From: Archivesica marissinica | Taxonomy: Eukaryota > Mollusca > Bivalvia > Venerida > Vesicomyidae | Direction of reading: 5' to 3' | NCBI GenBank assembly: GCA_014843695.1 | Contig: CM026401.1 | Coordinates: 47,581,486 to 47,645,485, forward strand | Length of the DNA stretch: 64,000 nt | Shown here: in pieces, positions 25,201 through 59,500 of the stretch | How positions within the stretch are numbered: the stretch's first letter is position 1 | Layout: every line of letters starts with the position of its first letter | The notes under the pieces: model-generated | Database searches by the model: none | What the model was told of the DNA's origin: nothing | Seen by the model: only the letters and a program-made list of their open reading frames with translations | Made by a program: the position numbers and the translations under genes

Positions 25201-28200
25201 TTCAGTAACAAGCCCCGCCTCTGATGGGTCTCGAACCATTGACGTCATGTGACAAAATTACTGTTTATCACCACTTCAGTAACAAGCCCCGCCTCTGATG
25301 GGTCTCGAACCATTGACGTCATGTGACAAAATTACTGTTTATCACCACTTCAGTAACAAGCCCCGCCTCTGATGGGTCTCGAACCATTGACGTCATGTGA
25401 CAAAATTACTGTTTATCACCACTTCAGTAACAAGCCCCGCATCTGATCATGGATCCTGAACCTTCACCGTCCCAATTGCCATGCCGACACCGAAATCACA
25501 AATGAAAAAAATACTTACCTCCCCTTCTTGCATTAATAATGAAATACTTAGGGAGCGGAGCATATGTTATACACATTTATTTCAGCTAGAATGTGAAAGA
25601 AACAAAATCTTTCAACATTAGACTACATTAATCGCTCTCGTGGAATCCATCGTGATGCGGGAGAGAGAAGAGTCAACGTGGACCTAAAGTGGCTTACGGT
25701 GCCTTACTAGTAACCTATTTCTAATGTGGTCATTCGTGTGGGAGGAAACCGGAGTACTCGGAGAAAACCCACCTGTTCGATCTGGTACCATCTCACATAC
25801 TTCCCGGTCCGAGGATCGAACCCGGGTTGCATTGGTGAGAAGTGCGCGCGCTAATGAAATATAGAAACTCATCAGTGTAATAATATGCTTTGTTGATTTT
25901 GGGGTCGCACCGACAGCTTCGGTCATACGGCAACTCTCTCCGGCTATTATTTATGGAGGAAGACCATGGGTAGAACCACAGACCTACTGCAAGCCAGCTA
26001 AATAGCTTCCTCGCATGAAATGATTTAACACCCCCAGCGGGATTCGAACCTCCACCGGTGAGGGGCAAGTGATTTGAAGTAAACGACCGCAACCACTCGA
26101 CCATGCAATAAAATTCATTATTCCATTGGTTGAAAACAGTGCAATGGTTTCCAGCAACTGCAGTTTGAAATATTAGCTGTCAATCACGTCATTTATTGCA
26201 TCATCTAATTGCGACGTTCTAGCATCATTTAGCGCACAGTTGCACCGTTCACTGCAGTTTGAAATATTAGCTGTCAATCACGTCATTTATTGCACCATCT
26301 AATTGCGACGTTCTAGCACCATTTAGCGCACAGTTGCACCATTTTCTATCGCAAAAACACTTCATTTTAAAATAAAAAGAACATTTGCTTGTATAAGTGA
26401 CTGATTCAATTGCATGTATATATCACCCATGAACGCAGAAAGCTATTATTATCACTCTATGCTGGTAATACGTCTTATATAATAATGCTTTCAGTGTTCA
26501 ATCGGTGGAATATACTAGTAAAAAAAAGTAAAGTGTTTATTTATTATAGTGTCGCCCCTATTGAAAGGGCCAGCCATTTCTGACTTATGAGACACCTCTT
26601 TTTATGAACATCAGTACTTCCCGAATCCTATGCTTGTATGCCAGGCTGGTAGGCAATCTATAACCATTATTTAACTAGCTGGCGCCTCACCAACCAACTG
26701 GCCATATCAGGACGAACCCCCGACCTTAACCACTAGGCCACGGAGACTAGTAATTCGACCATTCACTGTAACCAACAAATATTCTCTCTCTATACAATTT
26801 AGGTGTGACATACCTTTACAAGCATCTTCAACACATCAGTCATGCTTGCATATTCCCGGAAAATCTTCACAAAGCCTTGAATGAAGAAACTGCCATCATT
26901 CAAGTGACGCCAGCTAACATGACCTGTGTAGAGTGGAAAATTGTATGAATACGTTTTCAACTATATCACTTACAGGTTGCTCTAAATATTTCAATTTTCT
27001 ACAGCCAAATATGAAATCACCAGGGTTTAACTGAGATGGTCGTGATAGCGCAGTGGATGAGCGTTCGCTTCAGGTGCGAAAGGACCGGAGTTCGAACCCC
27101 GCTGGAGCCGTTACGATTGTGCCCTTAGGCAAGGCATTTAAATTCCACATTGCCTCTTCTCTCCCCTTCATGGCGATGGATTCCATCAGGAATGAGGTCT
27201 CGAGAGTGATTAATATAAGTTGAAAGAACTTGTTTCGCAATCAAGCTAAAATAAATTTGTATAAACTAACCGAGAAGGTGATTTCAGAGAGTCTCCTTGG
27301 GCTATTTTCAGCTAAGAGAGAAATGTTTTCATAAAGAATACATAGAGGATATATAGAGGATACATAAAGAATACATAGAGGATACATAATGAATACATAG
27401 AGGATACATAGAGAATATATAGAGGATACATTAAGAATACATAGAGGATACATAGATGACAGTTTACGAAATCAGTAATCATCTCCTTTGTATTATTAAA
27501 GTGACACTATAAAAACTTTTTTCTTTTGCAACATGAACTGAAAGTGAAAGTAGGGTTTTCCTGAATCTGTTTGTCACGCTCTGGCGTACATTCGGAAGGC
27601 ATTGCTCTCCATCGGTAATAGGAATAAACATCTAAGACAGCTGATTCAACCTCCTTTGTTGCTGTTGCATCCAAAAACTCATTTAAGCATTGTTTGCAGA
27701 CATTTGTTGATAAACAAATTTGCGTTTACAGCGGTGCTATATTTATTTGATTTTTCTCTCTCGATTATTTGTGAATACTTGGGATTTTTTTAAAAACACA
27801 TTCATTGGAAATTATATTCTTAAATGTCCGGGACATCAAAACATCTTTATTCCAATATAGTGTCACTTTAAGCTTCTCCATTTTTTAAATGTATGGCTTA
27901 AGCCGGATCCCTAATATTATTATCGATAGATGGGTGCAGAAATTAGGATAAATACTTCAGTGAGTAATACCAGGTGATCTAATTAGGATAAATACTTCAG
28001 TTTAGAATACCAGGTGATCTAATTAGGATAAATACTTCAGTGTATAATACCAGGTGATCTAATTAGGATAAATACTTCGGTTTAGAATACCAGGTGGTCT
28101 AATTAGGATAAATACTTCAATATATAATACCAGGTGATCTAATTAGGATAAATACATCAGTGTATAATACCAGGTGGTCTAATTAGGATAAATACATCAG

Positions 28201-31200
28201 TATAGACTACCAGGTGATCTAATTAGGATAAATACTTCAATATATAATACCAGATGATCTAATTAGGATAAATACATCAGTGTATAATACCAGGTGGTCT
28301 AATTAGGATAAATACATCAATGTATAATACCAGGTGATCTAATTAGGATAAATACTTCAGTGTATAATACCAGGTGGTCTAATTAGGATAAATACATCAG
28401 TATAGACTACCAGGTGATCTAATTAGGATAAATACTTCAATATATAATACCAGATGATCTAATTAGGATAAATACATCAGTATAGACTACCAGGTGGTCT
28501 AATTAGGATAAATACATCAATGTATAATACCAGGTGATCTAATTAGGATAAATACATCAATGTATAATACCAGGTGATCTAATTAGGATAAATACATCAA
28601 TGTATAATACCAGGTGATCTAATTAGGATAAATACATCAATGTATAATACCAGGTGATCTAATTAGGATAAATACTTCAGTGTATAATACCAGGTGATCT
28701 AATTAGGATAAATACTTCAGTGTATAATACCAGGTGATCTAATTAGGATAAATACATCAATGTATAATACCAGGTGGTCTAATTAGGATAAATACATCAG
28801 TATAGACTACCAGGTGATCTAATTAGGATAAATACTTCAATATATAATACCAGATGATCTAATTAGGATAAATACATCAGTATAGACTACCAGGTGATCT
28901 AATTAGGATAAATACTTCAATATATAATACCAGATGATCTAATTAGGATAAATACATCAGTATAGACTACCAGGTGGTCTAATTAGGATAAATACATCAA
29001 TGTATAATACCAGGTGATCTAATTAGGATAAATACATCAATGTATAATACCAGGTGATCTAATTAGGATAAATACATCAATGTATAATACCAGGTGATCT
29101 AATTAGGATAAATACATCAATGTATAATACCAGGTGATCTAATTAGGATAAATACATCAATGTATAATACCAGGTGGTCTAATTAGGATAAATACATCAA
29201 TGTATAATACCAGGTGATCTAATTAGGAGAAATACATCAATGTATAATACCAGGTGATCTAATTAGGATAAATACTTCAGTGTATAATACCAGGTGATCT
29301 AATTAGGATAAATACATCAATGTATAATACCAGGTGATCTAATTAGGATAAATACTTCAGTGTATAATACCAGGTGATCTAATTAGGATAAATACATCAA
29401 TGTATAATTCCAGGTGATCTAATTAGGATAAATACATCAATGTATAATACCAGGTGATCTAATTAGGATAAATACTTCAGTGTATAATACCAGGTGATCT
29501 AATTAGGATAAATACATCAATGTATAATTCCAGGTGATCTAATTAGGATAAATACATCAATGTATAATACCAGGTGATCTAATTAGGATAAATACTTCAG
29601 TGTATAATACCAGGTGATCTAATTAGGATAAATACATCAATGTATAATTCCAGGTGATCTAATTAGGATAAATACATCAATGTATAATACCAGGTGATCT
29701 AATTAGGATAAATACTTCAGTGTATAATACCAGGTGATCTAATTAGGATAAATACATCAATGTATAATTCCAGGTGATCTAATTAGGATAAATACATCAA
29801 TGTATAATACCAGGTGATCTAATTAGGATAAATACTTCAGTGTATAATACCAGGTGGTCTAATTAGGATAAATACATCAATATATAATACCAGGTGGTCT
29901 AATTAGGATAAATATATCAATATATAATACCAGGTGATCTAATTAGGATAAATACATCAATATATAATACCAGCTGATGTAATTCGGATAAATGCATCAG
30001 TGTATAATACCAGGTGATCTAATTAGGATAAATGCATCAGTGTATAATACCAGGTGGTCTAATTAGGATAAATACTTCAATATATAATACCAGCTGATGT
30101 AATTCGGATAAATGCATCAGTGTATAATACCAGGTGATCTAATTAGGATAAATGCATCAGTGTATAATACCAGGTGATCTAATTAGGATAAATACTTCAG
30201 TGTATAATACCATGTGGTCTAATTAGGATAAATACTTCAGTGTATAATACCAGGTATTGTAGAGTAGGCAACCAAAAAGTCTTTCATGTTTGGAATTCGA
30301 CTACTGCTCCTAGGTTCTGGAGGAATGCTTCTCACGTCGTGGGATACGCTAACGGTCTCGTGCTCCCCGCGGGTCATGCTACCCTTGTCTTCAAGATCTA
30401 AATGGCAAATGATTCAATTCAGGCTATGCATATGGATACAACAAATGACATTTACTTTGAAAAGTTTGTACAAAGAGGCAGGTATATCGACTTAGATAGA
30501 TGATAAAAACATTTACTTATGTCCCAGCAAATAATGATAATGAAACACTTACTTTTACCTTCTTGCATTGATAATAAAATACTTACTTACCTCCCATGCA
30601 TGATAATGAAATACTTGCTTATCTCCCCTTACATGCATTGAAAATTACCTCCTGTGCATTGACACTTACTTATCTCCCTGCATTGATAATAAAACACTTA
30701 TCTCCCCTGCATTGATAATGAAACACTTACTTACTTATCTCCCCTGCATTGATAATGAAACACTTACTTACTTATCTCCCCTGCATTGATAATGAAACAC
30801 TTATCTCCCCTGCATTGATAATGAAAACTTACTTACTTATCTCCCCTGCATTGATAATGAAACACTTACTTGTCTCCCCTGCATTGATAATGAAACACTT
30901 ACTTATCTCCCCTGCATTGCTAATGAAACACTTACTTACTTATCTCCCCTGCATTGATAATGAAACACTTACTTATCTCCCCTGCATTGCTAATGAAACA
31001 CTTACTTATCTCCCCTGCATTAATAGTAAAACACTTACTTATCTCCCCTGCATTGATAATGAAACACTTCCTTACTTACCTCCCCTACATGCATTGATAA
31101 TGAAAAACTTTGGTTTATGATGTAATGCTGGACATCTCTCTGCAGTAAAAGACTCAAATGCTTCATTGACCTACAAAGATTTTTTCATTTAAAAAACAAC

Positions 31201-34200
31201 CAATCAGTTTACAGGAAACAAACGATAAAATTCACAAATGATATTGACGTGATGCACAAAAGTTATTGAAGTGATGCACAAATGTTATTGACGTGATGCA
31301 CAAATGTTATTGACATGATGCACAAATGTTATTGACATGATGCACAAATGTTATTGACGTGCTGCACAAATGTTATTGACATGATGCACAAATGTTATTG
31401 ACATGATGCACAAATGTTATTGATGTGATGCACAAATGTTATTGATGATGCACAAATGTTATTGATGATGCACAAATGTTATTGATGTGATGCACAAATG
31501 TTATTGACATGATGCACAAATGTTATTGATGTGATGCACAAATGTTATTGACGTGATGCACAAATGTTATTGATGTGATGCACAAATGTTATTGATGATG
31601 CACAAATGTTATTGATGTGATGCACAAATGTTATTGACATGATGCACAAATGTTATTGATGTGATGCACAAATGTTATTGACATGATGCACAAATGTTAT
31701 TGATGTGATGCACAAATGTTATTGATGATGCACAAATGTTATTGATGATGCACAAATGTTATTGATGTGATGCACAAATGTTATTGACGTGATGCACAAA
31801 TGTTATTGATGTGATGCACAAATGTTATTGACGTGATGCACAAATGTTATTGATGTGATGCACAAATGTTATTGATGATGCACAAATGTTATTGATGTGA
31901 TGCACAAATGTTATTGACATGATGCACAAATGTTATTGATGTGATGCACAAATGTTATTGACATGATGCACAAATGTTATTGATGTGATGCACAAATGTT
32001 ATTGACATGATGCACAAATGTTATTGATGTGATGCACAAATGTTATTGACGTGATGCACAAATGTTATTGATGATGCACAAATGTTATTGACAATGGCTG
32101 CTTAATGCAGGTTGGCTGCTTAATAGAGGTCAAATGTATAACAAAGTAACATATTTGTAATCTGAAAACTGGCTGCTTAATGCAGGTTGGCTGCTTAATA
32201 GAGGTCAAATGTATAATACAACAGATTGGGAATCTGGAAACTGGCTGCTTAATAGATGTGACCGCTAACACAGGTTTGACTGTAATGGATTTCATCATGT
32301 GTGTGTGTGTTTTACGTTTATTTATCATCGCTACCGGTTGCCCATATGAACGACGCCGCCTGATGAGATTAGTCATTTTAGATTTTTGGAGGATAGTGCA
32401 ATGATACAGACAGAGACCCATTCCAGAGTCTCCTCTGGTTCTTTTACGTGCACGGTGTAAAGCACCGACACAAGACCTTGGTTTAAAGTCCCATCTGAAA
32501 GACGGTTAATTTTATTAGGGTCAGACGGGGGATTGAACCTGCGATCCCTGGTTTACCAGTCCAGCGTATAACACTTACATTTATGTATCTTCCATCTACT
32601 CCATAGAGATAGTCCTCCGTGCCATGAGTCAGCAAGGCCACAGCCAAGCAATCAACATGCTTTAACTGCTGGTGTTGGGATAGGTTGTGTAAATTCTCCT
32701 TAATTTCCTACAATAACATGGTGAGCGAGCCGCTGTTAACATATAGAATGCAATATTGTTATAAACATACCCCCAACAAAAGCATCTCAGTAATGCAACC
32801 CGGGTTCGATCCTCCGACCGGGAAGTATGTGAGAGGGTACAGTGGTCGCCAGATCGGACAGGTGGGGTTTCTCTGGGTACTCTGGTTTCCTCCCACATGA
32901 ATGACCACATATACGCTTTCAACCGCGCCAACGAGAGTGATTAATATAAGTTGTTAGAACTTGCTTCTCACAAAAAAAAGCATGTGATCACAGGCCAAGT
33001 ATGGGATCAAATACTGGTGAATGGTCACAGGGGGAGGGGCATATAAATTATCATCATCATATGTTCATTAGTGGAGGAGCATACACTGGTCTTATGATCA
33101 CAGGGGGTGGGGCATACACTGGTCATGTGATCACAGGGGGCAGGGCATACACTCGACTTATGATCACAGGGGGCGGTGCATACACTGGTCATGTGATCAC
33201 GGGGGGAGGAGCATATACTTGTCCTATGATTACAGAAGGTGGGGCATGCACTGGACATGTGATTACAGGGGTAGGGCATGCACTGGTCATGGTCTGGGCA
33301 TACACTGGTCATGTGATCACAGGGTCAAGGCATACACTGGTCATGTGATCACAGGGGGCGGGGCATACACTGGTCATGTGATCATTTTGTGACGGGTAGC
33401 AATTATCACTGAATTGGGGACATTTTCACATAAATGTTCTCAAATATGGAAATTTGTGATGTTAAATTGCCAAATACATGAATACGTAACCTAAAGTAAA
33501 TTGCATATATTGCATGCTGGGTAAAATAAAGGCTAGATATAGTTTAAATAATTGCAGCAGACGACAATTCATTAATGTGTTTTTCTTCAAACATGCATAG
33601 GTCCCCGCAGGGGTTTGACATAAATGGAATATACATACATACATACATACAGTTAAACATATGATTCGCCGGAGGCGAGGCTAAATAAGCTCAATCATCA
33701 TCACAGTTAAACACTTACAAATGCTGTTAAATTATGCCGCACGTCCACGCCAAAGCCAAGCGACATAAACAGTGTCTTTAAGCTATCACAATCTATGTCT
33801 GTTCCAAGCCTTTCACTAAGGTCACCTCGGAACTTTCTGTTGTTAATTATCAGTAGCAGCCCTCGTGGATCTGTTTCCATTTTATACTCCTGCAAAAAGA
33901 ATCGTCAGTATTAGCTGCAACCTGACCGAGTATCAAACCCGGACCGTTCTATTCCAAATCCAATGCTCTACATGTACCACTGGACCACGGATGCCACAAA
34001 GTAACATGACATTTAAATACTTGTAAGGTTCTAAACCCAAATGCAAAGCTCAGCAAACTAGTCACTTTTTTTCTCTAATTATGATAACAAAATTACTGGT
34101 TGCACCCAAGACACACATTTGAGTTATTATATGGTCGGGAAAAGGTTATCTGTACGGAAAGTATCAATATGCATATTGACTCTTGAAAAATCCAGCTTGA

Positions 34201-37200: not shown

Positions 37201-40200
37201 ACCAACTTTGGCCCAACTCCCAACTTTGAGAGATGGACCATTATTGGCCCAACTCTTTGTGTCTGTTTGAGAGATGGACCAACTTTGACCCAACAGTATG
37301 ATGTATTTATTTTGTGCTCTTTCTAGTTTTTGAGAGTTTACAGACCTCTAACGAGTTGCCAGTGTATCCGATTCTTCCCATTAAGGAGGCTTGCAGAGAC
37401 AATGAGCTTATATGTAGGCTTGATTGTGGTCCAGATGTCGAGGAACATGTTCCTTGAGAAGTTGAGCCTGGTATGCTTGATTGACTCTCTTGAACACTGG
37501 ACTGAGGGGGCTCATCCACCATTATAGCATCTGAAAGAAGGAAGAATTAAAATGCATTAGCTCAGGGTTCATTCTAGGTCTGAATTTTTTGGAGAAGTGA
37601 GAAAGCGTGTGATCGCTTCCTTAAATGGTGTTCTTTAATATACGTCTGCAAAATAGGGTTAAAATGCACAGTACAACCATTAAATACAACATTTGAATAG
37701 AAGGAGTGCTTTATAATGGGCCAGTGTATCTTACTAGACAAAATTTTGTTTGAAAATCGTAAAAACCAAAAAATATATACATGTATATTTATTTTTTTAT
37801 TTAGGGGGAAGTGGGGCCCCCAGAGGGCGAAGTCAGGGTCCCTAGGGTGACAATTTCGCCCACATCGCCCTCTAGAATGATCCCTGCATATCACCTCTCA
37901 ACAGCCAATACACTTAAAACTATAAACGCTTACCTACTTCTTAAATTGCCACATTTTATTAATCAACTTTTTAAAACAGAATTTTAATTTTGAAAACTCG
38001 GCCCCACAAATGACTCCATCTCCGCCACACATCCAAACATTTCTAAACAATGCTTAAACATTCACACCTTGGACAACAATAACATATTACTTACATATAT
38101 ATTAATTTAATGCTACCATAAAAGTAAATCTTTGGACTTTAAATACTTGTCCAATTCAGCTCATTTACGGAAGATAAAAGACAGGTGGTTCTGCATTTCC
38201 CACATCGCCCTCTAGAATGATCGCTGTTAGCCGCACAAAATGTCTCCTTCCACTGACAAAAGCATTACTCTCTTCCTTTTTTAAACATTTATTTTTTAAT
38301 TTATCATGACACCAAAAATTTCAGGACGTCTCCTCAAAAGCATGTTAAGTCGTTTATTTTCGGTGGATATTGCGAGTATTAGAAAATGCTCCAATTCCAG
38401 AAACATTTCTGGTTCTTGCACATACAGTATAACCTCTACTAACGGTCGACTCTAATAAGCGGTCACCTCCAGTAAATGAGCCAGTTCATGTCCTACCAAG
38501 AGATTTTCCTATATATTTGACCTCTATTTGACGGTCACCTCTCTGACCCGGTCAACTGTGAGTCGAAACGGCCAAAATACGATAAATATATCTCTGAGAA
38601 ACGGTACATTTTATCATCTGGCAAACTGTTAATACAGTAAAACACCTCCAACCCAGGCTTCTTCCGGACCGGTCAAAAAGTCCGGTTTAGAGGCGGTTCC
38701 GGCTTAAATATGTTTTTATATTTAATACATGTACAACATACTACGGTATGATGTACAGTAAAACATATGAACACTGTTCACTGTGTTACCTACTGGACAA
38801 CTAATCTGCAAACATCCTAAACAAAATGTTGAAAACAGGAAATCAACTAACCTCCCTGGTTATCCTCTAGAATAATGTTTTCCCTCATTTCTGTATCACC
38901 TGACCCCTGCGATTCCTCAACTGACCTTGACACTTGACCTTGGCTTGACCTCTGTGTTTCCTGGGTCAAATAAACGTTGTTTGACATTGATACGGCTGGC
39001 GTGTGCGAATTATTGACACCATTCTGTGTCAAGCTATCTCTTTGTGAAATATATTCCTACAAGAATATATTATAATATTAACTGTGAGTGTTCATCAGTC
39101 ACTCTTGCCTATTGTTAAATACCTATGGTCAGTATCTCTTACCTGTAAAACATAAATTGCTACAAAGCTATGGTCAGTATCTCTTACCTGTAAAACATAA
39201 ATAGCTACAAAGCTATGGTCAGTATCTCTTACCTGTAAAACATAACTTGCTACAAAGCTATGGTCAGCCTCTCTTACATGTACAATAACATGCTACAAAG
39301 CTATGGTCAGCCTCTCTTACATGTACAATATAACATGCTACAAAGCTATGGTCAGTATCTCTTACCTGTAAAACATAACATGCTACAAAGCTATGGTCAG
39401 CCTCTCTTACCTGTAAAACATAACTTGCTACAAAGCTATGGTCAGCCTCTCTTACCTGTAAAACATAACTTGCTATAAAGCTATGGCCAGTCTCTCTTAC
39501 CTGTAAAACATAACTTGCTACAAAGCTATGGTCAGCCTCTCTTACATGTAAAACATAACTTGCTACAAAGCTATGGTCAGTCTCTCTTACCTGTAAAACA
39601 TAACTTGCTACAAGGCTATGGTCAGCATCTCTTACCTGTAAAACATAACTTGCTACAAAGCTATGGTCAGTCTCTCTTACCTGTAAAACATAACTTGCTA
39701 CAAAGCTATGGTCAGCCTCTCTTACCTGTAAAACATAACATGCTACAAAGCTATGGTCAGCCTCTCTTACCTGTAAAACATAACTTGCTATAAAGCTATG
39801 GCCAGTCTCTCTTACCTGTAAAACATAACTTGCTACAAGGCTATGGTCAGCCTCTTACCTGTAAAACATAACTTGCTACAAAGCTATGGTCAGCCTCTCT
39901 TACATGTAAAACATAACTTGCTACAAAGCTATGGTCAGTCTCTCTTACCTGTAAAACATAACTTGCTACAAGGCTATGGTCAGCATCTCTTACCTGTAAA
40001 ACATAACTTGCTACAAGACTATGGTCAGCCTCTCTTACATGTACAATAACATGCTACAAAGCTATGGTCAGCCTCTCTTACATGTACAATAACATGCTAC
40101 AAAGCTATGGTCAGCCTCTCTTACATGTACAATATAACATGCTAGAAAGCTATGGTCAGCATCTCTTACCTGTAAAACATAACTTGCTACAAAGTTGTGG

Positions 40201-43200
40201 TCACTCTCTCTCAAACACTGGATAAACTGGTCAAATGCTCCCGGTCCTCTACGTTGAAGATAATCCAGGAATGTCCGAACCCTCTCTGGACGTGACTCTT
40301 TAGCCTGTATATGTGAAATGCTGTTCCATTAATTGAAACAAAACGACGACGACGACGACAACAACAACAACAACAACATTTATTCAACATTTATTCAACA
40401 TTAAGCAAAATTACAGTGCTTCTTTACATGTAATGTAATGACAACATGAAACATGAGTCCTACACGTGGTATCTTAAGCAAAGTGAAGATTATCATAATT
40501 ATCATATTTTATTAATTTTTAAAAAAAAATTTTTTTTATAAATAGATAAAGGTTAAACACAACTTGTATACCATTTATGATCATTTACTAGTCTATCTTA
40601 TACACATTTATTTTAGCTCGATTGCGAAACAAGTTCTTGCAACTTATATTAATCACTCTCGAGACCTCATTCCTGATGGATTCCATCGCCACGAGGGAGA
40701 GAGAAGAGGCAACGTGGACATTAAATGCCTTGCCTAAGGGCACAATCGTAACGGCTCCAGCGGGGTTCAAACTCCGGACCTTTCGCATCTGAAGCGAACG
40801 CACATCCACTGCGCTATCACGACTTCCACGAAAACGTTTAGAAAATACATAGTAAATATAATGAATAAAATCAACCTGTGTTTCTTTTATTTGGGTATAC
40901 CGTCAAACTTGTCTTAAGCAGCCAGCCAAGGGAATCACAGAATGTGGCTGCTTATCACAGGTGGCTTCTTAATAGAGGTCAAATGTATATAAAACATTAT
41001 ATTGGGCATATGGGAACTGTCTGCTTAATACAGGTTGGCTGCTTAATAGAGATGACCACAAACACTGGTTTGAGTGTACATATACAATACAGTTGTGCTG
41101 CTTAAAGCGACAATACATCGCAAAAAGCAAAAAATGCATATTTTCACGTATAAATAGCATTGCTACATGTATTTCACATTCTTCCAAATTAGCTAATTAA
41201 TTTTCATAATAAACAAGGTTTATGCGATTTCCAAAATGGTTAACACAACACGGAAGTGATATTTGCATATTACTCAATCCTACTATACAGGGGAGGTAAT
41301 CGTGTGATACTCAATCCTACAATACAGGGGAGGTAAGTGCGAGATAGTCAATCCTACTACACAGGGGAGGTAATCGTGTGATACTCAATCCTACTATACA
41401 GGGGAGGTAATCGTGTGATACTCAATCCTACTATACAGGGGAGGTAATCGTGTGATACTCAATCCTACTATACAGGGGAGGTAATTGCGTGATACTCAAT
41501 CCTACTATACAGGGGAGGTAAGTGCGAGATAGTCAATCCTACTATACAGGGGAGGTAATTGCGTGATACTCAATCCTACTATACAGGGGAGGTAATCGTG
41601 TGATATTCAATCCTACTATACAGGGGAGGTAATTGCATGATACTCAATCCTACAATACAGGGGAGGTAATCGAGTGATACTCAATCCTACAATACAGGGG
41701 AGGTAATAGTGTGATACTCAATCCTACTATACAGGGGAGGTAATCGCGTGATACACAATCCTACTATACAGGGGAGGTAATCGCGTGATAGTCAATCCTA
41801 CTACACAGGGGAGGTAATCGTGTGATACTCAATCCTACTATATAGGGGAGGTAATCGCGTGATACTCAATCCTACTATACAGGGGAGGTAATCGTGTGAT
41901 ACTCAATCCTACTATACAGGGGAGATAATCGCATGATACTCAATCCTACTATACAGGGGAGGTAATAGCGTGATACTCAATCCTACTATACAGGGGAGGT
42001 AATCGTGTGATATTCAATCCTACTATACAGGGGAGGTAATTGCGTGATACTCAATCCTACTATACAGGGGAGGTAATCGCATGATACTCAATCCTACAAT
42101 ACAGGGGAAGTAAGTGCGAGATAGTCAATCCTACTACACAGGGGAGGTAATTGTGTGATACTCAATCCTACTATACAGGGGAGGTAATCGAGTGATACTC
42201 AATCCTACTATACAGGGGAGGTAATCGCGTGATACTCAATCCTACTATACAGGGGAGATAATCGTGTGATACTCAATCCTACTATACAGGGGAGGTAATT
42301 GCGTGATACTCAATCCTACAATACAGGGGAGGTAATCGAGTGATACTCAATCCTACAATACAGGGGAGGTAATCGTGTGATACTCAATCCTACAATACAG
42401 GGGAGGTAATCGAGTGATACTCAATCCTACTATACAGGGGAGGTAAGTGCGAGATAGTCAATCCTACTATACAGGGGAGATAATTGCATGATACTCAATC
42501 CTACTATACAGGGGAGGTAATCGCATGATACTCAATCCTACAATACAGGGGAGGTAATCGAGTGATACTCAATCCTACAATACAGGGGAGATAATCGTGT
42601 GATACTCAATCCTACCATACAGGGGAGGTAATAGCGTGATACTCAATCCTACTATACAGGGGAGGTAATCGTGTGATACTCAATCCTACTATACAGGGGA
42701 GGTAATCGCGTGATACTCAATCCTACTATACAGGGGAGGTAATCGCATGATACTCAATCCTACTATACAGGGGAGATAATCGCATGATACTCAATCCTAC
42801 TATACAGGGGAGGTAATCGTGTGATACTCAATCCTACAATACAGGGGAGGTAATCGCATGATACTCAATCCTACTATACAGGGGAGGTAATCGCATGATA
42901 CTCAATCCTACAATACAGGGGAGGTAATCGCATGATACTCAATCCTACCATACAGGGGAGGTAAGTGCGAGATAGTCAATCCTACTATACAGGGGAGATA
43001 ATTGCATGATACTCAATCCTACTATACAGGGGAGGTAATCGCGTGATACTCAATCCTACTATACAGGGGAGGTAATAGCGTGATACTCAATCCTACTATA
43101 CAGGGGAGGTAATCGCGTGATACTCAATCCTACAATACAGGGGAGATAATCGTGTGATACTCAATCCTACCATACAGGGGAGGTAATCGCATGATACTCA

Positions 43201-46200
43201 ATCCTACTATACAGGGGAGGTAATTGCGTGATACTCAATCCTACTATACAGGGGAGGTAATCGTGTGATACTCAATCCTACAATACAGGGGAGGTAATAG
43301 CGTGATACACAATCCTACTATACAGGGGAGGTAATCGTGTGATACTCAATCCTACTATACAGGGGAGGTAATCGTGTGATACTCAATCCTACTATACAGG
43401 GGAGGTAAGTGCGAGATAGTCAATCCTACTATACAGGGGAGATAATTGCATGATACTCAATCCTACTATACAGGGGAGGTAATAGCGTGATACTCAATCC
43501 TACTATACAGGGGAGGTAATCATGTGATACTCAATCCTACTATACAGGGGAGATAATTGCGTGATACTCAATCCTACTATACAGGGGAGGTAATAGTGTG
43601 ATACTCAATCCTACTATACAGGGGAGGTAATCGTGTGATACTCAATCCTACTATACAGGGGAGGTAATCGCATGATACTCAATCCTACTATACAGGGGAG
43701 GTAATCGCATGATACTCAATCCTACTATACAGGGGAGATAATCGCATGATACTCAATCCTACTATACAGGGGAGGTAATTGCATGATACTCAATCCTACT
43801 ATACAGGGGAGGTAATCGTGTGATACTCAATCCTACTATACAGGGGAGGTAATCGTCTGATACTCAATCCTACTATACAGGGGAGGTAATCGTGTGATAC
43901 ACAATCCTACTATACAGGGGAGGTAATCGTCTGATACTCAATCCTACTATACAGGGGAGGTAATCGTGTGATACACAATCCTACTATACAGGGGAGGTAA
44001 TCGTCTGATACTCAATCCTACTATACAGGGGAGGTAATCGTGTGATACACAATCCTACTATACAGGGGAGGTAATCGTCTGATACTCAATCCTACTATAC
44101 AGGGGAGGTAATCGTGTGATACACAATCCTACTATACAGGGGAGGTAATCGTCTGATACTCAATCCTACTATACAGGGGAGGTAATCGTGTGATACACAA
44201 TCCTACTATACAGGGGAGGTAATCGTCTGATACTCAATCCTACTATACAGGGGAGGTAATCGTGTGATACACAATCCTACTATACAGGGGAGGTAATCGT
44301 CTGATACTCAATCCTACTATACAGGGGAGGTAATCGTGTGATACACAATCCTACTATACAGGGGAGGTAATCGTCTGATACTCAATCCTACTATACAGGG
44401 GAGGTAATCGTGTGATACACAATCCTACTATACAGGGGAGGTAATCGTCTGATACTCAATCCTACTATACAGGGGAGGTAATCGTCTGATACTCAATCCT
44501 ACTATACAGGGGAGGTAGCATGATATTCAATCCTACAATACAGGGGAGATAAGTGCGAGATAGTCAATCCTACTATACAGGGGAGATAATTGCGTGATAC
44601 TTAATACTACTACCGGTATACAGGGGAGGTAATCGCATGATACTCAATCCTACAATATAGGGGAGGTAAGTGCGAGATAGTCAATCCTACTACACAGGGG
44701 AGGTAATCGCGTGATAGTGCCGTTTAGATGTAGGTTAATTCACTCCAAATTTAATTATGTGCCGATGTGAAGGGTGAGATATAATCATATAACGGTATAT
44801 TTCTACGAAAACTGTCTATACCGAAATAGGATAAGCACTGATGAAACACTACATATATGTAGGCCTATTGAGGAGGAAGCCACGGCTACCATACAGGGCT
44901 AGGTATTAAAGAATTGTGGGAGAAGTGAGAATAGGCGCGATTGCATCCTTAAATGTCAATAAAATAAGGTTAAAAAACACAATATGACCATTAAATACAA
45001 CATTTGAATAGAAGGAGTGATTTTTAATGGGCCAGTGTATCTTACCACAGGAACTTGAAATTTTATCCATAAACCACCAAAGGTCTTGTATCTCTATCCT
45101 AGGACACACCCCTCTATTAAAAAAAAAAGATATAGCGGGGTGTCCTAGGATAGTTACGAGACCTGTGGTGGCTTATGGATAAAATTTCAAGTTCCTGTGG
45201 TCTTACTGGACACAAATGTTTTCATAGGGTGAAGTGGGTCCCCCAAAGGTCGAAGTCAGGGTCCCTAGGGCGACTATTTCGCCCAAGTCGCCCTCTAGAA
45301 TGAGCCATCACATCATTGTATCGTATTTTCATTGTTATATATATATTATTCTCCTGCCTATTGTATATCAATCAATTGATACGGAGATGAACTATATACG
45401 TTTTCTTTTGTTCTAATCCCTTTCAGTCTACTGCGGTTAAATTATATGTAAAATGTTCATTTCTTGATTACATGAAAAGATACTGAAATAAATAAAATTT
45501 ACATTGATGCAATAAATTTGTATATTTACACCACCAGGCGCGTAACTGCCTATACGCAAGTACGCAGTGGCGTCCACACCATTTTCAAAACAAACAAAAA
45601 TCTTTAAAAAAACGGAAGACCGCACGTACGAGCGAGCGAAATGAGTTTCTACTATACAGACTAGCAGACTACCTGTGGTAATGTATATAGACTAGAGTAA
45701 AACTCTGACATCATCGTACACTGACTACACTCGCTGTAACGACAACATTTGCCTCCAGGAAGGAGAGAAAACTTGACTTTCTTTAAAGACCTTATGGCGT
45801 TCAACTGTCTGTATCTATGTAGGTCTACGGACTATTAAAATCTCAACCCTCATTTACCAGTACATTAATAATAACAGCGTAGATCTATTGCCTATACACT
45901 CCCTTTTCATACACATACCCAGCTAAAGATATGAAACTCAGACGATGCACTGATGTACAGTATAGTTCAGACATTTTTACAAATTGCCGCATAAAAAACA
46001 TACGTTTTCCAAGTGTATTTATCGGAATATAATTAGTTCTCAGAGTCGCCAGAGTGCACCAAATGACGTCCAGGTTTTAAAAAAATTCTGGAATTTTCCA
46101 TCACCATTCGCACCTTTGGTGCTCGTTTGGAGTCCACATCAAAATTGGCTGGGTACGCCCCTGACCACTATTGCATGTCCTTCGATGAACGTATGTGCCC

Positions 46201-49995: not shown

Positions 49996-50132
49996 GGGTG
50001 ATATAGATTTGTGCTATCCGTCCGTGTGTCCGTCCGTATGGAGACGTGTGTCCTTCCGTATAGAGACGGATCAGTATAACCAATTTGTGTAATTTCACGA
50101 AACTCCAATTAAATATATATCATCACAATGTG

Positions 50133-50228: not shown

Positions 50229-50460
50229 GAGATCATTTTAGAGGGCGATGTTGACTTCGCCCTCTGGGGGGCCCCACTTCTCCCTTACAATTTTCATACA
50301 AAATCTTGGCAATTAAGATACACTTGCCCACTCCTTCTATTATAATGTTGTATTTAATGGTCATACTGTGCATTTTAACCATATTTTGTTGAAATTTATT
50401 AAATAACACCATTTAAGGACGCGATCGCACGCTTTCTCACTTCTCCCAAAGTGAGAAGTG
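50228..50460 (+). mobile_element. Dispersed CTCTAGAATGA element copy
   Basis: TTTTAGAGGGCGATGTTGAC, TTCTATTATAATGTTGTATT and CGCACGCTTTCTCACTTCTC match 37565-37885 in reverse. It ends about 55 bases before the first RER1 coding exon. Confidence 0.8.
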
Positions 50461-50516
50461 AGAGCGCTAAGCACTGTGCTAATCGGACAGCCATGAATTT
50501 GCTTGTTTAATTTCAG

Positions 50517-50599
50517 TTTGAGATCTCATGATGGAGGATGGCATTTCACAGCCGTCGAGGCCCAACGTGGTCCAGCAGTTGTTCAAGAGGATAGGGGAG
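50517..50599 (+). CDS. RER1: RER1 coding exon 1 (11 nt 5' UTR plus residues 1-24)
   Basis: The acceptor TTTAATTTCAG precedes TTTGAGATCTC; ATG at 50528 opens [20 protein letters not shown]; donor GAG-GTAATT. Two adjacent Met codons exist; the first is taken. [11 protein letters not shown] parallels the human VYRFFTRLGQ segment. Confidence 0.93.
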
Positions 50600-53500
50600 G
50601 TAATTAGTCTTTACAAATTCATTTTAGCAATTGCGAAGCAAGTTCTTACAACATTCAATCGCTATCAAGACCTCGTTCCTTATGGAATCCATCGCTGTGA
50701 GTGTGAGTGAGAGATAAGAGGCAATGTGTCAACAGTGTATTGCCTTTGGAGAGGGGACAGAGATGTAGAAAGGCGTATATATGAAGCATAGAGTTAAGGA
50801 CACCACCATCATGGTTCAATTTCTGACTGAGCTCAAACTCACAAACCCTCGGTTACTAGGCCAACAGTATTTATTGCCTTTGCTTAAAGTGACACTATAT
50901 CAGTGAAGACATAAATGTCTGCAGAATGTAATTTCCTATTATATGGTATAATTTCCCCCCCCCCCCCCCCCAATATTTTTTCTTGATTGCTTAAACTTGG
51001 TGTACTTATTCAGGTATGATAATCATTCGTAGTGAAATGTTAATTGTTTGTCGACCACACACCGTCTCCGTGGCCTAGTGGTTAAGGCGTCCGCATACGG
51101 AGCGTCGAACCTCGTCGGGGATTCGTTCTGGTATGGTCGGTTGGTGAGTCACCAGCTAGTTAAATAATGGTTACCGATTAGTTTAAACATTGTTTATTTC
51201 AGTATTTTACATGTACATAACAGAATTAACATTTTACATATAAATTAACAGCAATAGACTGCAAGACTGGTTACCAATTGCCTACAAGCCCGGCGCCTGG
51301 CCTTCAAGCATATGATTCGGGAAGTACTGATGTTCTAAAAAAAGGTGTCTCATAAGTCAGCGATGGCTGGCCCTTTCAATAGGGGTGACACTACAATAAA
51401 CAAACAGTTTTATATAATGTTAGGTGGGAAAGAGAAATGTGTTTTACATACATATATGCGTTTTTGTTTTCAGATCCAGCGAGGGTTGTTAGATAAGGCA
51501 ACGCCGCACATGCCATTTCGATGGATTATGACCACTGTCATTTTTCTTCTATATTTCATTAGAGTTTATTTTCTACAGGTAAGGCTAAATGTCTATTTAT
51601 TGCCCGCTGGAATTTGCGGCGAGGGTATTTTGTTTCGAGTCAGCTGTGCGTCTTTCAAGGTTTGCTGAGTCAGTTGTTAGTGGCATTTTATGAAATTAGC
51701 TTGTTGACTTCAAATCACATGCGCGCTGTAGGTTCGAACTGAGGCTGGAAACGTACCATCATGAATCTGAGGCTGGAAGCGTACCATATAATCGTAGGTT
51801 ACATGTTGATCTGATGATAAATTAAAAAAGACAAACCAATAAAACATAGTCATGTATACAGACAAACCAAAGGAACCACCGAAAATTGCTGCTTAGCACA
51901 GGTGGCTGCTTAATAGAGGTCAATTATATAATAAAACAACATATTGGTAATCTGGAAACTGGCTGCTTAATACAAGTTGACTGCTTAATGAAGGTGACCA
52001 CTAACACAGGTTTAACTGCTTAATGAAGGTGACAGTTAACACAGGTTTGACTGCTTAATGAAGGTGACCACTAACACAGGTTTAACTGCTTAATGAAGGT
52101 GACTGCTAACACAGGTTTGACTACTTAATGAAGGTGACCACTAACACGGGTTTGACTGTACATGTTGACTGCTTAATGAAGGTGACCACTAACACAGGTT
52201 TGACTGCTTAATGAAGGTGACCACTAACACAGGTTTGACTGTACATGTTGACTGCTTAATGAAGGTGACCACTAACACAGGTTTGACTGCTTAATGAAGG
52301 TGACCACTAACACAGGTTTGACTGTACATGTTGACTGCTTAATGAAGGTGACCACTAACACAGGTTTGACTGCTTAATGAAGGTGACCACTAACACAGGT
52401 TTGACTGTACATGTTGACTGCTTAATGAAGGTGACCACTAACACAGGTTTGACTGCTTAATGAAGGTGACCACTAACACAGGTTTGACTGTACATGTTGA
52501 CTGCTTAATGAAGGTGACCACTAACACAGGTTTGACTGCTTAATGAAGGTGACCACTAACACAGGTTTGACTGTACATGTTGACTGCTTAATGAAGGTGA
52601 CCACTAACACAGGTTTGACTGCTTAATGAAGGTGACCACTAACACAGGTTTGACTGCTTAATGAAGGTGAACACTAACACCGGTTTGACTGCTTAATGAA
52701 GGTGACCACTAACACAGGTTTGACTGCTTAATGAAGGTGACCACTAACACAGGTTTGACTGCTTAATGAAGGTGACCACTAACACAGGTTTGACTGTACA
52801 TGTTGACTGCTTAATGAAGGTGACCACTAACACAGGTTTGACTGCTTAATGAAGGTGACCACTAACACAGGTTTGACTGTACATGTTGACTGCTTAATGA
52901 AGGTGACCACTAACACAGGTTTGACTGCTTAATGAAGGTGACCACTAACACAGGTTTGACTGTACATGTTGACTGCTTAATGAAGGTGACCACTAACACA
53001 GGTTTGACTGCTTAATGAAGGTGACCACTAACACAGGTTTGACTGTACATGTTGACTGCTTAATGAAGGTGACCACTAACACAGGTTTGACTGCTTAATG
53101 AAGGTGACCACTAACACAGGTTTGACTGTACATGTTGACTGCTTAATGAAGGTGACCACTAACACAGGTTTGACTGTACATGTTGACTGCTTAATGAAGG
53201 TGACCACTAACATGGGTTTGACTGCTTAATGAAGGTGACCACTAACACAGGTTTGACTGCTTAATGGCTTAATGAAGGTGACCACTAACACAGGTTTGAC
53301 TGTACATGTTGACTGCTTAATGAAGGTGACCACTAACACAGGTTTGACTGCTTAATGAAGGTGACCACTAACATGGGTTTGACTGCTTAATGAAGGTGAC
53401 CACTAACACAGGTTAGACTGCTTAATGAAGGTGACCACTAACACAGGTTTGACTGCTTAATGAAGGTGAACACTAACACCGGTTTGACTGCTTAATGAAG

Positions 53501-56500
53501 GTGACCACTAACACAGGTTTGACTGCTTAATGAAGGTGACCACTAACACAGCTTTGACTGCTTAATGAAGGTGACCACTAACACAGGTTTGACTGCTTAA
53601 TGAAGGTGACCACTAACACGGGTTTGACTGCTTAATGAAGGTGACCACTAACACAGGTTTGACTGCTTAATGAAGGTGACCACTAACACAGGTTTGACTG
53701 TTTAATGAAGGTGACCACTAACACAGGTTTGACTGCTTAATGAAGGTGACCACTAACACAGGTTTGACTGTTTAATGAAGGTGACCACTAACACATGTTT
53801 GACTGCTTAATGAAGGTGACCACTAACACAGGTTTGACTGCTTAATGAAGGTGACCACTAACACAGGTTTGACTGCTTAATGAAGGTGACCACTAACACA
53901 GGTTTGACTGCTTAATGAAGGTGACCACTAACACAGGTTTGGCTGCTTAATGAAGGTGAACACTAACACAGGTTTGACTGCTTAATGAAGGTGACCACTA
54001 ACACGGGTTTGACTACTTAATGAAGGTGACCACTAACACGGGTTTGACTGCTTAATGAAGGTGACCACTAACACGGGTTTGACTGCTTAATGAAGGTGAC
54101 CACTAACACAGGTTTGACTGCTTAATGAAGGTGACCACTAACACACGTTTATTTGTACTTATATTTGTCTTTCAGGGCTGGTATATTGTGACGTATGCAC
54201 TAGGAATTTATCTACTAAATTTATTTATTGGGTTTCTTACACCCAAAATTGACCCTACACTTAACTTGGACAGTGATGGTAAGTTGTGTTTAGAAATACC
54301 GTATTTACCCAACTATAAGATTGTCCCCAACTTAGGTCTTAAATCAGTGGTATTCAGGGGCTCCCGCTGTCGGTCGCCAATGGCGCCAATTGCAACAAAA
54401 AACAAATAATGGCGCTAAATTTTGTAAATTGGCGAAAATATTTTTTTGTGCACATGTTTTATCAAATACATGGCTTCAAATATTTATTTGTGAACTATAT
54501 GGCTCTTAGTTGGCTCCAAGTGTTATAAATTGGCTCCAGTAACAAACATTCAGACAGAGGGAACCCTGGTATTTTGTATAGACCCGCGTATAAGACGGTT
54601 TGATAATATGGAAACCACTTGAAAGTAACGATCAAACAAATAATTCAGCTCTGTAAATTATGTCATGTCCGCAGCCGTGGTCGAGTGGTTAAGGTCGCTA
54701 ACTTGTATACCACTGTAACCTATCATCACTGATGGTCACGGGTTCGGGCCCCGCTCAGGCCGTGTCTCATTTATATGAAAAAGTTGGCAGTTTCTTACGG
54801 AGGTTGGTGCACCCAAGTACTGGTTAACCGCTGGAGCCTGCCCAGGAAAGGTGTTGTTAGGTAAACTGCCTGCCGGCGATATAGCCCAAAATGGTGCTGA
54901 TGCAGGCGTAAACCCGAAATATAACATAACATATAAATGATGTCAAAAATGTACTGATGCACAACAATAAAAATGATTTGCGAAAATACTATTGACAAGT
55001 TCAGTTTACAGATAGAGCTGTGAAAGTCTATGTGTTTGTTACACGCTTTCAGTTATTTCAAATGTCCTCAATTATTGAGTTGGAACAAACTGATTTTTAA
55101 ACAAAATTGTAAAAAAAATGTTTATCACTCGCTTATGGGAAGCCACTTTGAGGCCATACTCTGGTGATAATAATCCCGTCTTATACGCAAGTAAGTACGG
55201 TATATAATATAAACAATATTATTCCAATCATAAGCCTGTGTATATATGATCTTACAGGAGTGGTGATTTCATACCATACGTTATTAAACAAGTTTTGGAA
55301 CTTAGCTATTTACCCATTTGATTCTGGATACCGTTCAAACAGTATTTGCAAAGAACATAGAGCCAGATCAGCCGCCATGGAGATGTAATAGTATATTAAC
55401 CTAAATCTCATGTAGTCCCAGTAATATCTATGGAGGTGTGATAGATATGGCGACTACTTATCAACTGCATGATAGCTAAATGGCTGTCGTTTGTATGGAG
55501 ATATAATAGTATATTAACCTAAATCTCATGTAGTCCCAGTAATATCTATGGAGGTGGGATAGATATGGCGACTACTTATCCACTGCATTATAGCTAAATG
55601 GCTGTCGTTTGTATGGAGATGTATAAATAGTATATTAACCTAAATCTCTATGTAGTCCCAGTAATATCTATGGAGGTGTGATAGATATGGCGACTACTTA
55701 TCCACTGCATGATAGCTAAATGGCTGTCGTTTGTATGGAGATATATAATAGTATATTAACCTAAATCTCTATGAAGGAAAGGGTTAAATGGCTGTCATTT
55801 GTATGGAGATGTAATAGTATATTAACCTAAATCTCTATGAAGGAAAGGGTTAAATGGCTGTCGTTTGTATGGAGATGTAATAGTATATTAACCTAAATCT
55901 CTATGAAGGAAAGGGTTAATATTGTGTGCTAAACTTATCACCATGGTTACAGATGATGGTCCAGAATTACCAACTAAATCTTCAGACGAATTCAAGCCTT
56001 TTATGAGACGATTACCTGAATTTAAATTTTGGTAAGTATTCAATTTGGATACAAGGATACAGGACAGGAGCTGGAGGGTGAATTTTGAGAGCCTCACTTC
56101 TCCCAATTTTGAAACTGAGCCGAGGGTGAAGTGTTTTCGTATTGAATACAAGGACATTTTCATTTGAGTCAACCAGCTCGTCCCTATTTTGATCTTGGGA
56201 GTTGTTGTTTCATATGGAAGTTATCATATATCAGGTTGCTATATTGCAAATTTCGCGTCGTGTCTGGTTTAATATTCGTGAATCTAATATTAGCTGTTTT
56301 AATATTCGTGAATCTAATATTAGCTGTTTTAATATTCGTGAATCTAATATTAGCTGTTTTAATATTCGTGAATCTAATATTAGCTGTTTTAATATTCGTG
56401 AATCTAATATTAGCGATTATTTAGCTTCAAAATGCATTTTTCGCATACTGCTGTTGAGAGAAAATCTCAATAAGCTTTCGATTAAATCCGTTTTCATTAT

Positions 56501-59500
56501 GTATGCAATTTATATGTACTGTATATTATGAATGAATAAATATGTTTAAACCAACATGGAGAATTTTACCTTGCCATCGGGCTGGCTCAGGATCAAATAT
56601 ATCGCCGGATTGTACTGTGAAACAAACTTGTGTACGGTATTAATTTAGGGCTTATTATACAGTCAGACCTGTCTTAAACAGCCAGCCAACGGAAGAACAG
56701 AAAGTTGCTGCTTAGCACAGGTGGCTGCTTAATAGAGGTCAAATGTATAATAAAACAACATATTGGGAATCTGGAAACTGGCTGCTTAATGGAGGCGACC
56801 ACTAACACAGGTTTGACTGTAATTACATACGCATATCTATGGAAACATTAATTACTATCAAAAGCTGAGAGCTGTATACCCAATTACAACACTCTGTGTA
56901 TTTTCAGGTACTCGGGCACAAAACCTGTCTCAGCAGCCTTACCTGTATACCCAATTACAACACTCCGTATATTTTCAGGTACTCTGCCCCAAAACCCGTC
57001 TCAGCAGACTTACCTATATATCCAATTACAACACTCCGTATATTTTCAGGTACTCTGCCCCAAAACCCGTCTCAGCAGACTTACCTATATATCCAATTAC
57101 AACACTCCGTATATTTTCAGGTACTCTGCCCCAAAACCCGTCTCAGCAGACTTACCTATATACCCAATTACAACACTGTATATTTTCAGGTACTCGGGCA
57201 CAAAACCCGTCTCAGCAGACTTACCTGTATACCCAATTACAACACTCCGTATATTTTCAGGTACTCGGCCACAAAACCCGTCTCGGCAGACTTACCTATA
57301 TACCCAATTACAACACTCCGTATATTTTCAGGTACTCTGCCACAAAACCCGTCTCAGCAGACTTACCTGTATACCCAATTACAACACTCTGTATATTTTC
57401 AGGTACTCGGCCACAAAACCCGTCTCAGCAGACTTACCTGTATACCCAATTACAACACTCCGTATATTTTCAGGTACTCGGCCACAAAACCCGTCTCGGC
57501 AGACTTACCTATATACCCAATTACAACACTCCGTATATTTTCAGGTACTCTGCCACAAAACCCGTCTCAGCAGACTTACCTGTATACCCAATTACAACAC
57601 TCCGTATATTTTCAGGTACTCGGCCACAAAACCCGTCTCAGCAGACTTACCTGTATACCCAATTACAACACTCCGTATATTTTCAGGTACTCTGCCACAA
57701 AACCCGTCTCAGCAGACTTACCTGTATACCCAATTACAACACTCCGTATATTTTCAGGTACTCGGCCACAAAACCCGTCTCAGCAGACTTACCTGTATAC
57801 CCAATTACAACACTCCGTATATTTTCAGGTACTCGGCCACAAAACCCGTCTCGGCAGACTTACCTATATACCCAATTACAACACTCCGTATATTTTCAGG
57901 TACTCTGCCCCAAAACCCGTCTCAGCAGACTTACCTATATATCCAATTACAACACTCCGTATATTTTCAGGTACTCTGCCCCAAAACCCGTCTCAGCAGA
58001 CTTACCTATATATCCAATTACAACACTCCGTATATTTTCAGGTACTCTGCCCCAAAACCCGTCTCAGCAGACTTACCTATATACCCAATTACAACACTCT
58101 GTATATTTTCAGGTACTCGGGCACAAAACCCGTCTCAGCAGACTTACCTGTATACCCAATTACAACACTCCGTATATTTTCAGGTACTCGGCCACAAAAC
58201 CCGTCTCAGCAGACTTACCTGTATACCCAATTACAACACTCCGTATATTTTCAGGTACTCGGCCACAAAACCCGTCTCAGCAGACTTACCTGTATACCCA
58301 ATTACAACACTCCGTATATTTTCAGGTACTCGGCCACAAAACCCGTCTCGGCAGACTTACCTATATACCCAATTACAACACTCCGTATATTTTCAGGTAC
58401 TCTGCCACAAAACCCGTCTCAGCAGACTTACCTGTATACCCAATTACAACACTCTGTATATTTTCAGGTACTCGGCCACAAAACCCGTCTCAGCAGACTT
58501 ACCTGTATACCCAATTACAACACTCCGTATATTTTCAGATACTCGGCCACAAAACCCGTCTCGGCAGACTTACCTATATACCCAATTACAACACTCCGTA
58601 TATTTTCAGGTACTCTGCCACAAAACCCGTCTCAGCAGACTTACCTGTATACCCAATTACAACACTCCGTATATTTTCAGGTACTCGGCCACAAAACCCG
58701 TCTCAGCAGACTTACCTGTATACCCAATTACAACACTCCGTATATTTTCAGGTACTCTGCCACAAAACCCGTCTCAGCAGACTTACCTGTATACCCAATT
58801 ACAACACTCCGTATATTTTCAGGTACTCGGCCACAAAACCCGTCTCAGCAGACTTACCTGTATACCCAATTACAACACTCCGTATATTTTCAGGTACTCG
58901 GCCACAAAACCCGTCTCGGCGAACTTACCTATATACCCAATTACAACACTCCGTGTATTTTCAGGTACTCGGGCACGAAGGCAGTGTTAGTGGCAATGTT
59001 CTGTACATTTTTTGAAGCATTTAATATACCCGTGTTCTGGCCTATACTAGTGATGTACTTTATCATTTTATTCGTCATAACTATGAAGAGACAAATAAAG
59101 GTAAGCGGTTGTAATCTTGTTAGTTTATGCAAATATATTTAACTCTTTGCATGCTGGGTAAAATAAAGGCTATAAATAGTTCAAATAATTGTAGCAGACA
59201 GCAGATGATTAATGTGTTTTTCTAATTATGTAACTGAAAACTCGGAAACTGGAAATATCAGGGCCGGCATGATTTAAATCGCCCAAAAAGTCTACTTTTT
59301 TGTTTTTCTAAAAACTCATTTAAAAAGACTTGTTACAATTAAATTGAAATAAACAAGTTATCTGAATTCAAATTTAAAGTTATTTGGTGCAAAAGGTTAA
59401 TCTTTTTTACCTGTGTGGGTTAGGGTTAGGCACAATGTTAGGTTTATTGCCAGGGGTGACAATGGGCAAGTTACATAATTAATAACACTTTGCAGTCTCG

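Follow-up and report, generated by a model that had tools for sequence, protein, structure and literature searches.

Mirage minisatellites across exon-intron boundaries in a caspase gene, RER1 and other genes of the clam Archivesica marissinica

Introduction

Why do tandem arrays built from mutually unrelated units lie across the exon edges of two neighbouring genes? The question is raised by a 64,000-nucleotide stretch of the genome of the vesicomyid clam Archivesica marissinica (positions 47,581,486-47,645,485 of contig CM026401.1 in a 1.54-Gb assembly), the whole of which is referred to here as the window. It contains two genes, a CARD-caspase on the minus strand (10 exons, 47409 down to 22101) and RER1 on the plus strand (6 exons, 50531-61315), whose nine and five introns give 28 internal exon edges (14 donors and 14 acceptors). 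Five tandem arrays cover caspase donors 1, 2, 7 and 8 and RER1 acceptor 5. A preliminary description of the window knew of no described class of such repeats, but excerpts of two papers report tandem repeats across exon-intron boundaries, termed mirages, in amphioxus Adh3, globins, troponin C and PGBD5 (PMC3087553, PMC3902484). The clam arrays belong to this known class, and as far as literature searches go they extend it to a new phylum, at high density. They are probably the product of frequent short tandem duplication followed by expansion, with edge-crossing copies surviving as the outermost junction still splices.

Results

Five arrays with unrelated units cover exon edges in the window

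Exon edges were placed by hand from splice sites and reading frame, and alignment of six homologues from bivalves by tblastn agrees with them. Wrap-around alignment supplied the array ends and the consensus units, and the match of each unit to the adjoining exon was scored against 500 shuffles. Four of the five arrays contain between 9 and about 42 nt of exon sequence, and the fifth, at caspase donor 8, has only 5 nt in common with the exon.

The array at caspase donor 2 (39123..40211, minus strand) is the most telling. It consists of about 24 copies of a 45-bp unit with the splice-site GT in 24/24, and it overlaps exon 2 (40170..40304), which encodes the end of the CARD. Up to 42 exon nt are included and the match is clear (score 34 against a null maximum of 10). 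The entire unit aligns to the last 45 nt of the exon with 39/45 identical, and the intron-start stretch GTAAGAGAGGCTGACCATAG itself matches the exon at 14/20 (P 3e-5). The simplest reading would be that a segment of about 42 exon nt and 3 intron nt was duplicated once. At this array the exon copy diverges from the consensus; the remaining end copies are not clearly worse.

At donor 7 (about 30535..31110, minus strand), roughly 17 copies of a 33-bp unit, TTTCATTATCAATGCAGGGGAG followed by ATAAGTAAGTG, repeat the 3' end of exon 7 (31080..31170), which ends at the codons for the active-site ACRG. The unit holds 22-26 exon nt and the match is again clear (score 17, null maximum 7). TGTA, a stretch that takes in the codon for the cysteine, has been lost from its consensus, and AT replaces the GT of the functional site in 12/15 copies, with GT in 1/15, so that the exact junction is absent from some copies. 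The call made by Tandem Repeats Finder (TRF) ends about 5 nt before this donor, and the link to the exon edge depends on wrap-around alignment. A single copy of the donor-7 unit, with a donor-like GTAAGTA, lies in caspase intron 9 (25520-25552), about 5.5 kb from exon 7.

The only acceptor covered in the window is that of RER1 exon 5 (58965..59100, plus strand), where an array at 56872..58979 holds about 30 copies of a 71-bp unit made of 36 intron nt ending in TTTTCAG and then GTACTCGG and further sequence, with AG in 30/30. Its exon match is clear (score 12, null maximum 8) and extends over 12 exon nt, or about 26 if mismatches are allowed. Donor 1, at the end of the caspase exon that carries the start codon and CARD sequence (exon 1, 47278..47409), is covered by about seven copies of a 32-bp unit, TGCATCAAG followed by GTAAGATATTTATACAAATTTAT (47070..47286, minus strand), with 9 exon nt and GT in 7/7; here the exon match is marginal (score 10, null maximum 9). 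Further copies of the donor-1 unit are scattered through caspase intron 1 (45499-45524, 46563-46614, 46836-46874), which looks like an older, longer array split by insertions. The array that starts at donor 8 of exon 8 (30251..30397) is the longest of the five in copies, with about 58 of a 40-bp unit, AGATCACCTG followed by GTATTATACATTGATGTATTTATCCTAATT (27941..30255, minus strand), and GT in 54/58. Its match to the exon lies within the shuffle range (score 7, null maximum 9).

In a sensitive scan, the five edges gave 23-30 of 30 matching positions, compared with at most 19 of 30 for the other 23 edges. Of the controls, 300 positions lying outside arrays, 2.7% scored 22 or more. Related proteins aligned by tblastn cross the five array points without a corresponding insert. 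Outside their own arrays, the units at donors 2 and 8 and at acceptor 5 do not recur in the window (E 0.05), and a shared mobile unit as their source was rejected on this basis. The preliminary description had each of the five arrays contain the exact local junction. This is for the most part borne out. The arrays are real, their units are unrelated and they lie over five edges, but the exon part at donor 8 is limited to 5 nt, and at donor 7 most copies are without GT.

More edges are crossed in the window than array density predicts

Tandem arrays fill 50.1% of the window (39 merged arrays, 32,070/64,000 bases) and 55% of the noncoding positions within the gene span. Measured against this coverage, 5/28 crossed edges would, if anything, be too few for the length that arrays occupy. 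Such a null was dropped because array expansion inflates coverage. A null on the uncollapsed sequence, which counted only the four arrays that TRF calls over an edge (0.58 expected, P 0.003), was superseded. Both were replaced by a null in which every array is collapsed to one unit and, for edges outside the window, by the hazard of meeting a first array outward from the edge.

With arrays collapsed, 1.05 edge-spanning arrays are expected and five are observed (P 0.003; for at least four, P 0.018). Restricting the collapsed null to the span of the two genes gives 1.20 expected (P 0.004), and under alternative TRF score cut-offs the P value for five arrays lies at 0.003-0.010. The crossed edges comprise 4/14 donors and 1/14 acceptors. 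The earlier argument that chance placement is unlikely was too strong, because tandem arrays make up half of the window. The pattern was also picked out after the fact, and since the window was chosen for it, a test at other loci was needed.

Donors of a few genes, not acceptors, exceed expectation at other loci

We examined exon edges of three conserved families in the same genome, taking exons in listing order at 84 loci (numbered with the prefix L). Chaperonin contributed the best 30 of 57 matches (1,500 bp of flank) and adaptin 26/29 (300 bp of flank; ranks 1, 11 and 28 omitted). For kinesin, the list held 125 matches; 28 of its top 34 were used, ranks 6, 12, 13, 14, 23 and 27 being skipped for internal stops or as a second copy. 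A simple weight matrix based on the metazoan consensus served to predict splice sites. Of 168 possible edges, three yielded no splice site and 165 were scored; 39 were dropped (score below 0, or second copies L038, L043 and L057), leaving 126. The start of the first array outward was recorded for each edge, and a crossing of at least 5 nt was counted as strict. Caspase paralogues (L001-L028) and kinesin L098, which was noticed in a listing, stand outside the rate. At a first look, 107 edges had seven crossings against 3.65 expected (P 0.08), and 15 loci were added afterwards. The final count follows one correction by eye, in which L107 was moved from crossing to intronic after the script had used the wrong donor.

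Strict crossings were found at 8/126 edges (6%): donors L035 and L053 (chaperonin), L063, L072, L075 and L076 (adaptin) and L111 (kinesin), and acceptor L062 (adaptin). Crossings of 2 nt at L058 and 4 nt at L102 count as borderline and fall short of strict. Local array density predicts 4.5 crossings, and an overall excess is not clear across the 126 edges (P 0.11 conditional, 0.09 Poisson). Donors alone are crossed at 7/68, against 1.7 expected from their own density (P 0.005) or 2.3 from pooled density (P 0.009). Among acceptors, 1/58 is crossed against 2.8 or 2.1 expected, and no excess is present. The difference between donors and acceptors gives a Fisher P of 0.07 out of sample and 0.04 once the strict cases of the window are added. 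With a stricter splice-site cut-off, computed before the L107 correction and with L102 counted, 8/100 edges are crossed against 3.9 expected (P 0.04), and 7/58 donors against 1.4 (P 0.0006). Without the adaptin family the donor count falls to three against 1.3 (P 0.19). The enrichment at junctions that the preliminary description proposed as a test is supported only in part: elsewhere it is seen at donors, in four genes, but not at acceptors or clearly overall. Preferential seeding of arrays at donors is plausible; at acceptors it is not seen.

The strict cases are clustered by gene. All eight fall in 5/43 gene clusters, and the seven donor cases in 4/38 clusters with a usable donor edge; one adaptin gene (contig C18) has three donor cases (L063, L075, L076) and one chaperonin gene (contig C8) has two (L035, L053). 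There are four same-gene pairs among the eight cases, more than under label shuffling (permutation P 0.02), and the caspase of the window is likewise clustered, with four crossed donors in one gene. Because the donor cases come from few genes and their edges are not independent, the donor P values are too small. We speculate that the clustering may reflect a factor acting on whole genes, for example germline transcription or local array density.

The structure of the units at these loci resembles that in the window, as judged by eye. The 60-bp unit at L072 is 52 exon nt and GTAAGTAC, the 43-bp unit at L111 is 37 exon nt and GTGAGT, and the 42-bp unit at L035 is 35 exon nt and GTAACGT. In caspase paralogue L010, the homologous active-site exon carries a donor array (L010:7308-8524) of 81 copies of a 15-bp unit holding the donor. 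This array and the donor-7 array of the window lie at the same exon end of paralogous genes with different units, and they look like independent events. L010 also has an acceptor array (98-bp unit, 7 copies), paralogue L015 a donor array of three copies, and kinesin L098 an acceptor array (113-bp unit, 6 copies). Across the window and the other loci, unit lengths run from 15 to 113 bp, and both intron ends are represented, with acceptor cases outside the window at L010, L062 and L098. Such arrays are a general feature of this genome.

Several arrays near coding segments were considered and found not to span a junction: two intronic arrays at L014 and those at L081, L085, L088 and L089. A 42-bp repeat of about four copies in a caspase paralogue (L026:1788-1950) lies inside an open reading frame and is likely a coding tandem repeat. 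Two sets of chaperonin exons on contig C11 (21756032-21761265 and 21808243-21813196) have the same profile ranges, near-equal scores and opposite orientation about 50 kb apart, and stem either from recent duplication of the gene or from a sequence duplicated in the assembly.

Gene models and other repeats of the window

The two genes are supported by Pfam matches to Peptidase_C14 (3e-49), CARD (1e-14) and Rer1 (4e-75). Their best named relatives are from Mercenaria mercenaria (63% identity for the caspase, 89% for RER1), with unnamed transcripts reaching up to 66% and 90%. The remaining caspase exons, all on the minus strand with hand-set edges and tblastn agreement as above, are exon 3 (38852..39056), exon 4 (37346..37530), exon 5 (33719..33889), exon 6 (32579..32707), exon 9 (26814..26923) and exon 10, which holds the stop codon (22101..22226). 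Those of RER1, established in the same way on the plus strand, are exon 1 (50531..50599), exon 2 (51474..51578), exon 3 (54176..54278), exon 4 (55953..56031) and exon 6 with the stop codon (61223..61315).

The largest array of the window (13949-20773) is 6.8 kb long, with about 377 copies of a 17-bp unit. Much of RER1 intron 2 is occupied by a 2.2-kb array (51977-54150) of a 35-bp repeat, TTGACTGCTTAATGAAGGTGACCACTAACACAGGT, of which partial copies are dispersed at 7440-7830, 32245-32282, 41039-41073, 56782-56819 and 62756-62778, as if spread by a dispersed element. Two other arrays (13039-13755 and 22297-25447) have units with a stretch resembling a tRNA B box, GGTTCAAAACC and GGTTCGAGACC (minus strand). 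A search of the whole window against Rfam at gathering scores returned zero families.

Discussion

A probable history of duplication, expansion and survival at exon edges

The arrays are probably best explained as mirages arising from frequent short tandem duplication. In this genome, short segments of about 15-110 bp would often be duplicated in tandem and then expanded. Where the first duplicated segment crossed an exon edge, later copies would carry the end of the exon and the start of the intron, or the end of the intron and the start of the exon. The gene would survive because splicing at the copy beside the intact exon still yields a normal mRNA, while the inner intronic copies would be free to drift, expand and homogenise like any intronic minisatellite. 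Duplications lying wholly within coding exons would mostly be purged by selection, which would leave the edge-spanning ones as the visible remnant of exon duplication. The anatomy of the arrays, the derivation of their units from exons and their recurrence in other genes are seen directly, whereas the history of duplication and expansion, the purging within exons and the use of the outermost junction are inferred.

This explanation is consistent with the match of units to the local exon, with the density of arrays that hold no exon part, and with an overall frequency of crossings that fits local array density (8 against 4.5). The lack of any general protection of splice sites among the copies, and the stops or frame shift met on read-through at most of the donors, described below, also speak for it. 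Arrays cover 30% of the 30 chaperonin loci. It is further supported by recurrence in caspase paralogues (L010, L015), chaperonin (L035, L053), adaptin (L062, L063, L072, L075, L076) and kinesin genes (L098, L111). Three observations weigh against it. Donor cases exceed what local density predicts (7 against 1.7-2.3), as does the window (5 against about 1), so that uniform duplication may be an incomplete account. Clustering within genes is not predicted by plain uniform duplication. Finally, the splice site is intact in every copy at donor 1, donor 2 and acceptor 5, which leaves room for function.

A possible hot spot at donors

The donor excess among these observations is what would be expected if duplication began preferentially at 5' splice sites, seeding arrays above background. 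Such a mutational hot spot, with transcription-linked breaks, R-loops and nascent RNA bound by U1 among its conceivable causes, is possible but rather unlikely. It would account for the donor excess out of sample and its strengthening at the stricter cut-off, for the lack of an acceptor excess, and for the four donors against one acceptor in the window, and a transcription-linked cause would fit clustering by gene. The intron part of the unit is merely 3-11 nt in 8/13 donor cases, against 3.8 under uniform breakpoints (P 0.009, a post hoc figure); the window and the caspase paralogues are counted among these 13, and several of the units were partitioned by eye. On the other side, the seven out-of-sample cases, four of which are adaptin exons, come from 4/38 genes, the P values assume independent edges, and both the count without adaptin and the comparison of donors with acceptors are weaker. 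Splicing tends to use an upstream AG. Acceptor cases may for this reason have been reduced by selection rather than by rarer origin, although the excess at acceptors may also be genuinely absent. The more specific proposal, in which breakpoints fall no more than about 10 nt past the donor so that the end of the exon and the U1-pairing stretch are copied repeatedly in certain genes, is a shade less likely still.

Possible function of the copies and possible assembly artefact

Retention of the copies for a function, whether as decoy or reserve splice sites or as a source of alternative exons, is improbable. In favour of such a role are the intact GT or AG of donors 1 and 2 and acceptor 5 and, at donor 2, a 45-nt unit in frame, where the next two copies alone among the arrays could be used in frame to add 15 or 30 residues. 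The array copies give no consistent sign of selection on the splice sites, however: those at donor 7 have decayed, the site at donor 8 ranks in the middle for conservation, and where the dinucleotide is intact at least 15 other column pairs tie with it. A reading frame continued beyond donors 7 and 8 runs into a stop ahead of the donor of the next copy, use of the next donor at donor 1 would add 32 nt and shift the frame, and read-through at donor 2 stops after 33 codons.

Assembly artefact, by false expansion or collapsed haplotypes, is very improbable: copy numbers taken from assembly sequence may be wrong, but point changes set the copies apart (with a mean identity of 0.88-0.98 to the consensus in the five arrays), the neighbouring coding frames are intact, and the structure recurs with different units at unrelated genes, which makes it neither a one-locus oddity nor, most likely, the assembly accident that the preliminary description named as a possible refutation.

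Relation to known boundary repeats

Among open-licence literature, with relevance judged mainly by title, no report of mirages in bivalves was found. A minisatellite with multiple splice donor sites is reportedly present in the human 6-16 gene (IFI6/G1P3), the subject of a 1995 study in Nucleic Acids Research. It is like the clam arrays in providing repeated splice donors, and unlike them in concerning one gene, whereas several genes and long arrays are involved here.

The closest parallel is in amphioxus, where the excerpted descriptions of Adh3, BflGb6, BflGb9, troponin C and PGBD5 include boundary-spanning units at either intron end, with AG or GT in many but not all copies. Units there are 10-72 bp long in Adh3 and 150-160 bp in the globins (PMC3087553). 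Boundary copies that escape homogenisation and lengths that are unstable between alleles or cells also belong to the description of mirages, the instability being known for Adh3. Splicing is reported as undisturbed, and mirages were proposed in the globin paper as a route to new introns (PMC3087553, PMC3902484). In the window we find units that include the boundary (marginally at donor 1, weakly at donor 8), both intron ends, and lengths in the minisatellite range. The clam differs in being a bivalve, in its copy numbers, which reach 58 in the window and 81 at L010 compared with 6 and 3 units in the two BflGb6 haplotypes, and in having five such arrays in two neighbouring genes.

Two other systems share part of this anatomy. 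An intron gained in potato came, according to an excerpt, from a duplication across an intron-exon boundary, so that there too the duplicated segment crosses an exon edge with its splice signals; in that case a single duplication created a new intron, a step beyond what the clam arrays show (PMC4974935). Internal tandem repeats in human segmental duplications likewise involve minisatellite expansion, some of it at exon-intron boundaries and linked there to novel introns, but the excerpt gives units averaging 30 bp in four copies, half of them in coding sequence (PMC2812944).

Implications

Since their copies can hold a real-looking splice site together with a real part of an exon, mirages are a trap for gene prediction. 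If donors are indeed hot spots of duplication, about one donor in 10 would carry an array, and duplicated splice sites would be on hand in large numbers as raw material for new introns or exons. In the literature found, as far as its excerpts go, mirages have so far come from few genes, all of lancelets. Should about 6% of the exon edges in one bivalve carry such repeats, its introns would change rapidly in length and its splice sites in copy number, and the old proposal that introns originate by tandem duplication of splice-site segments would become testable.

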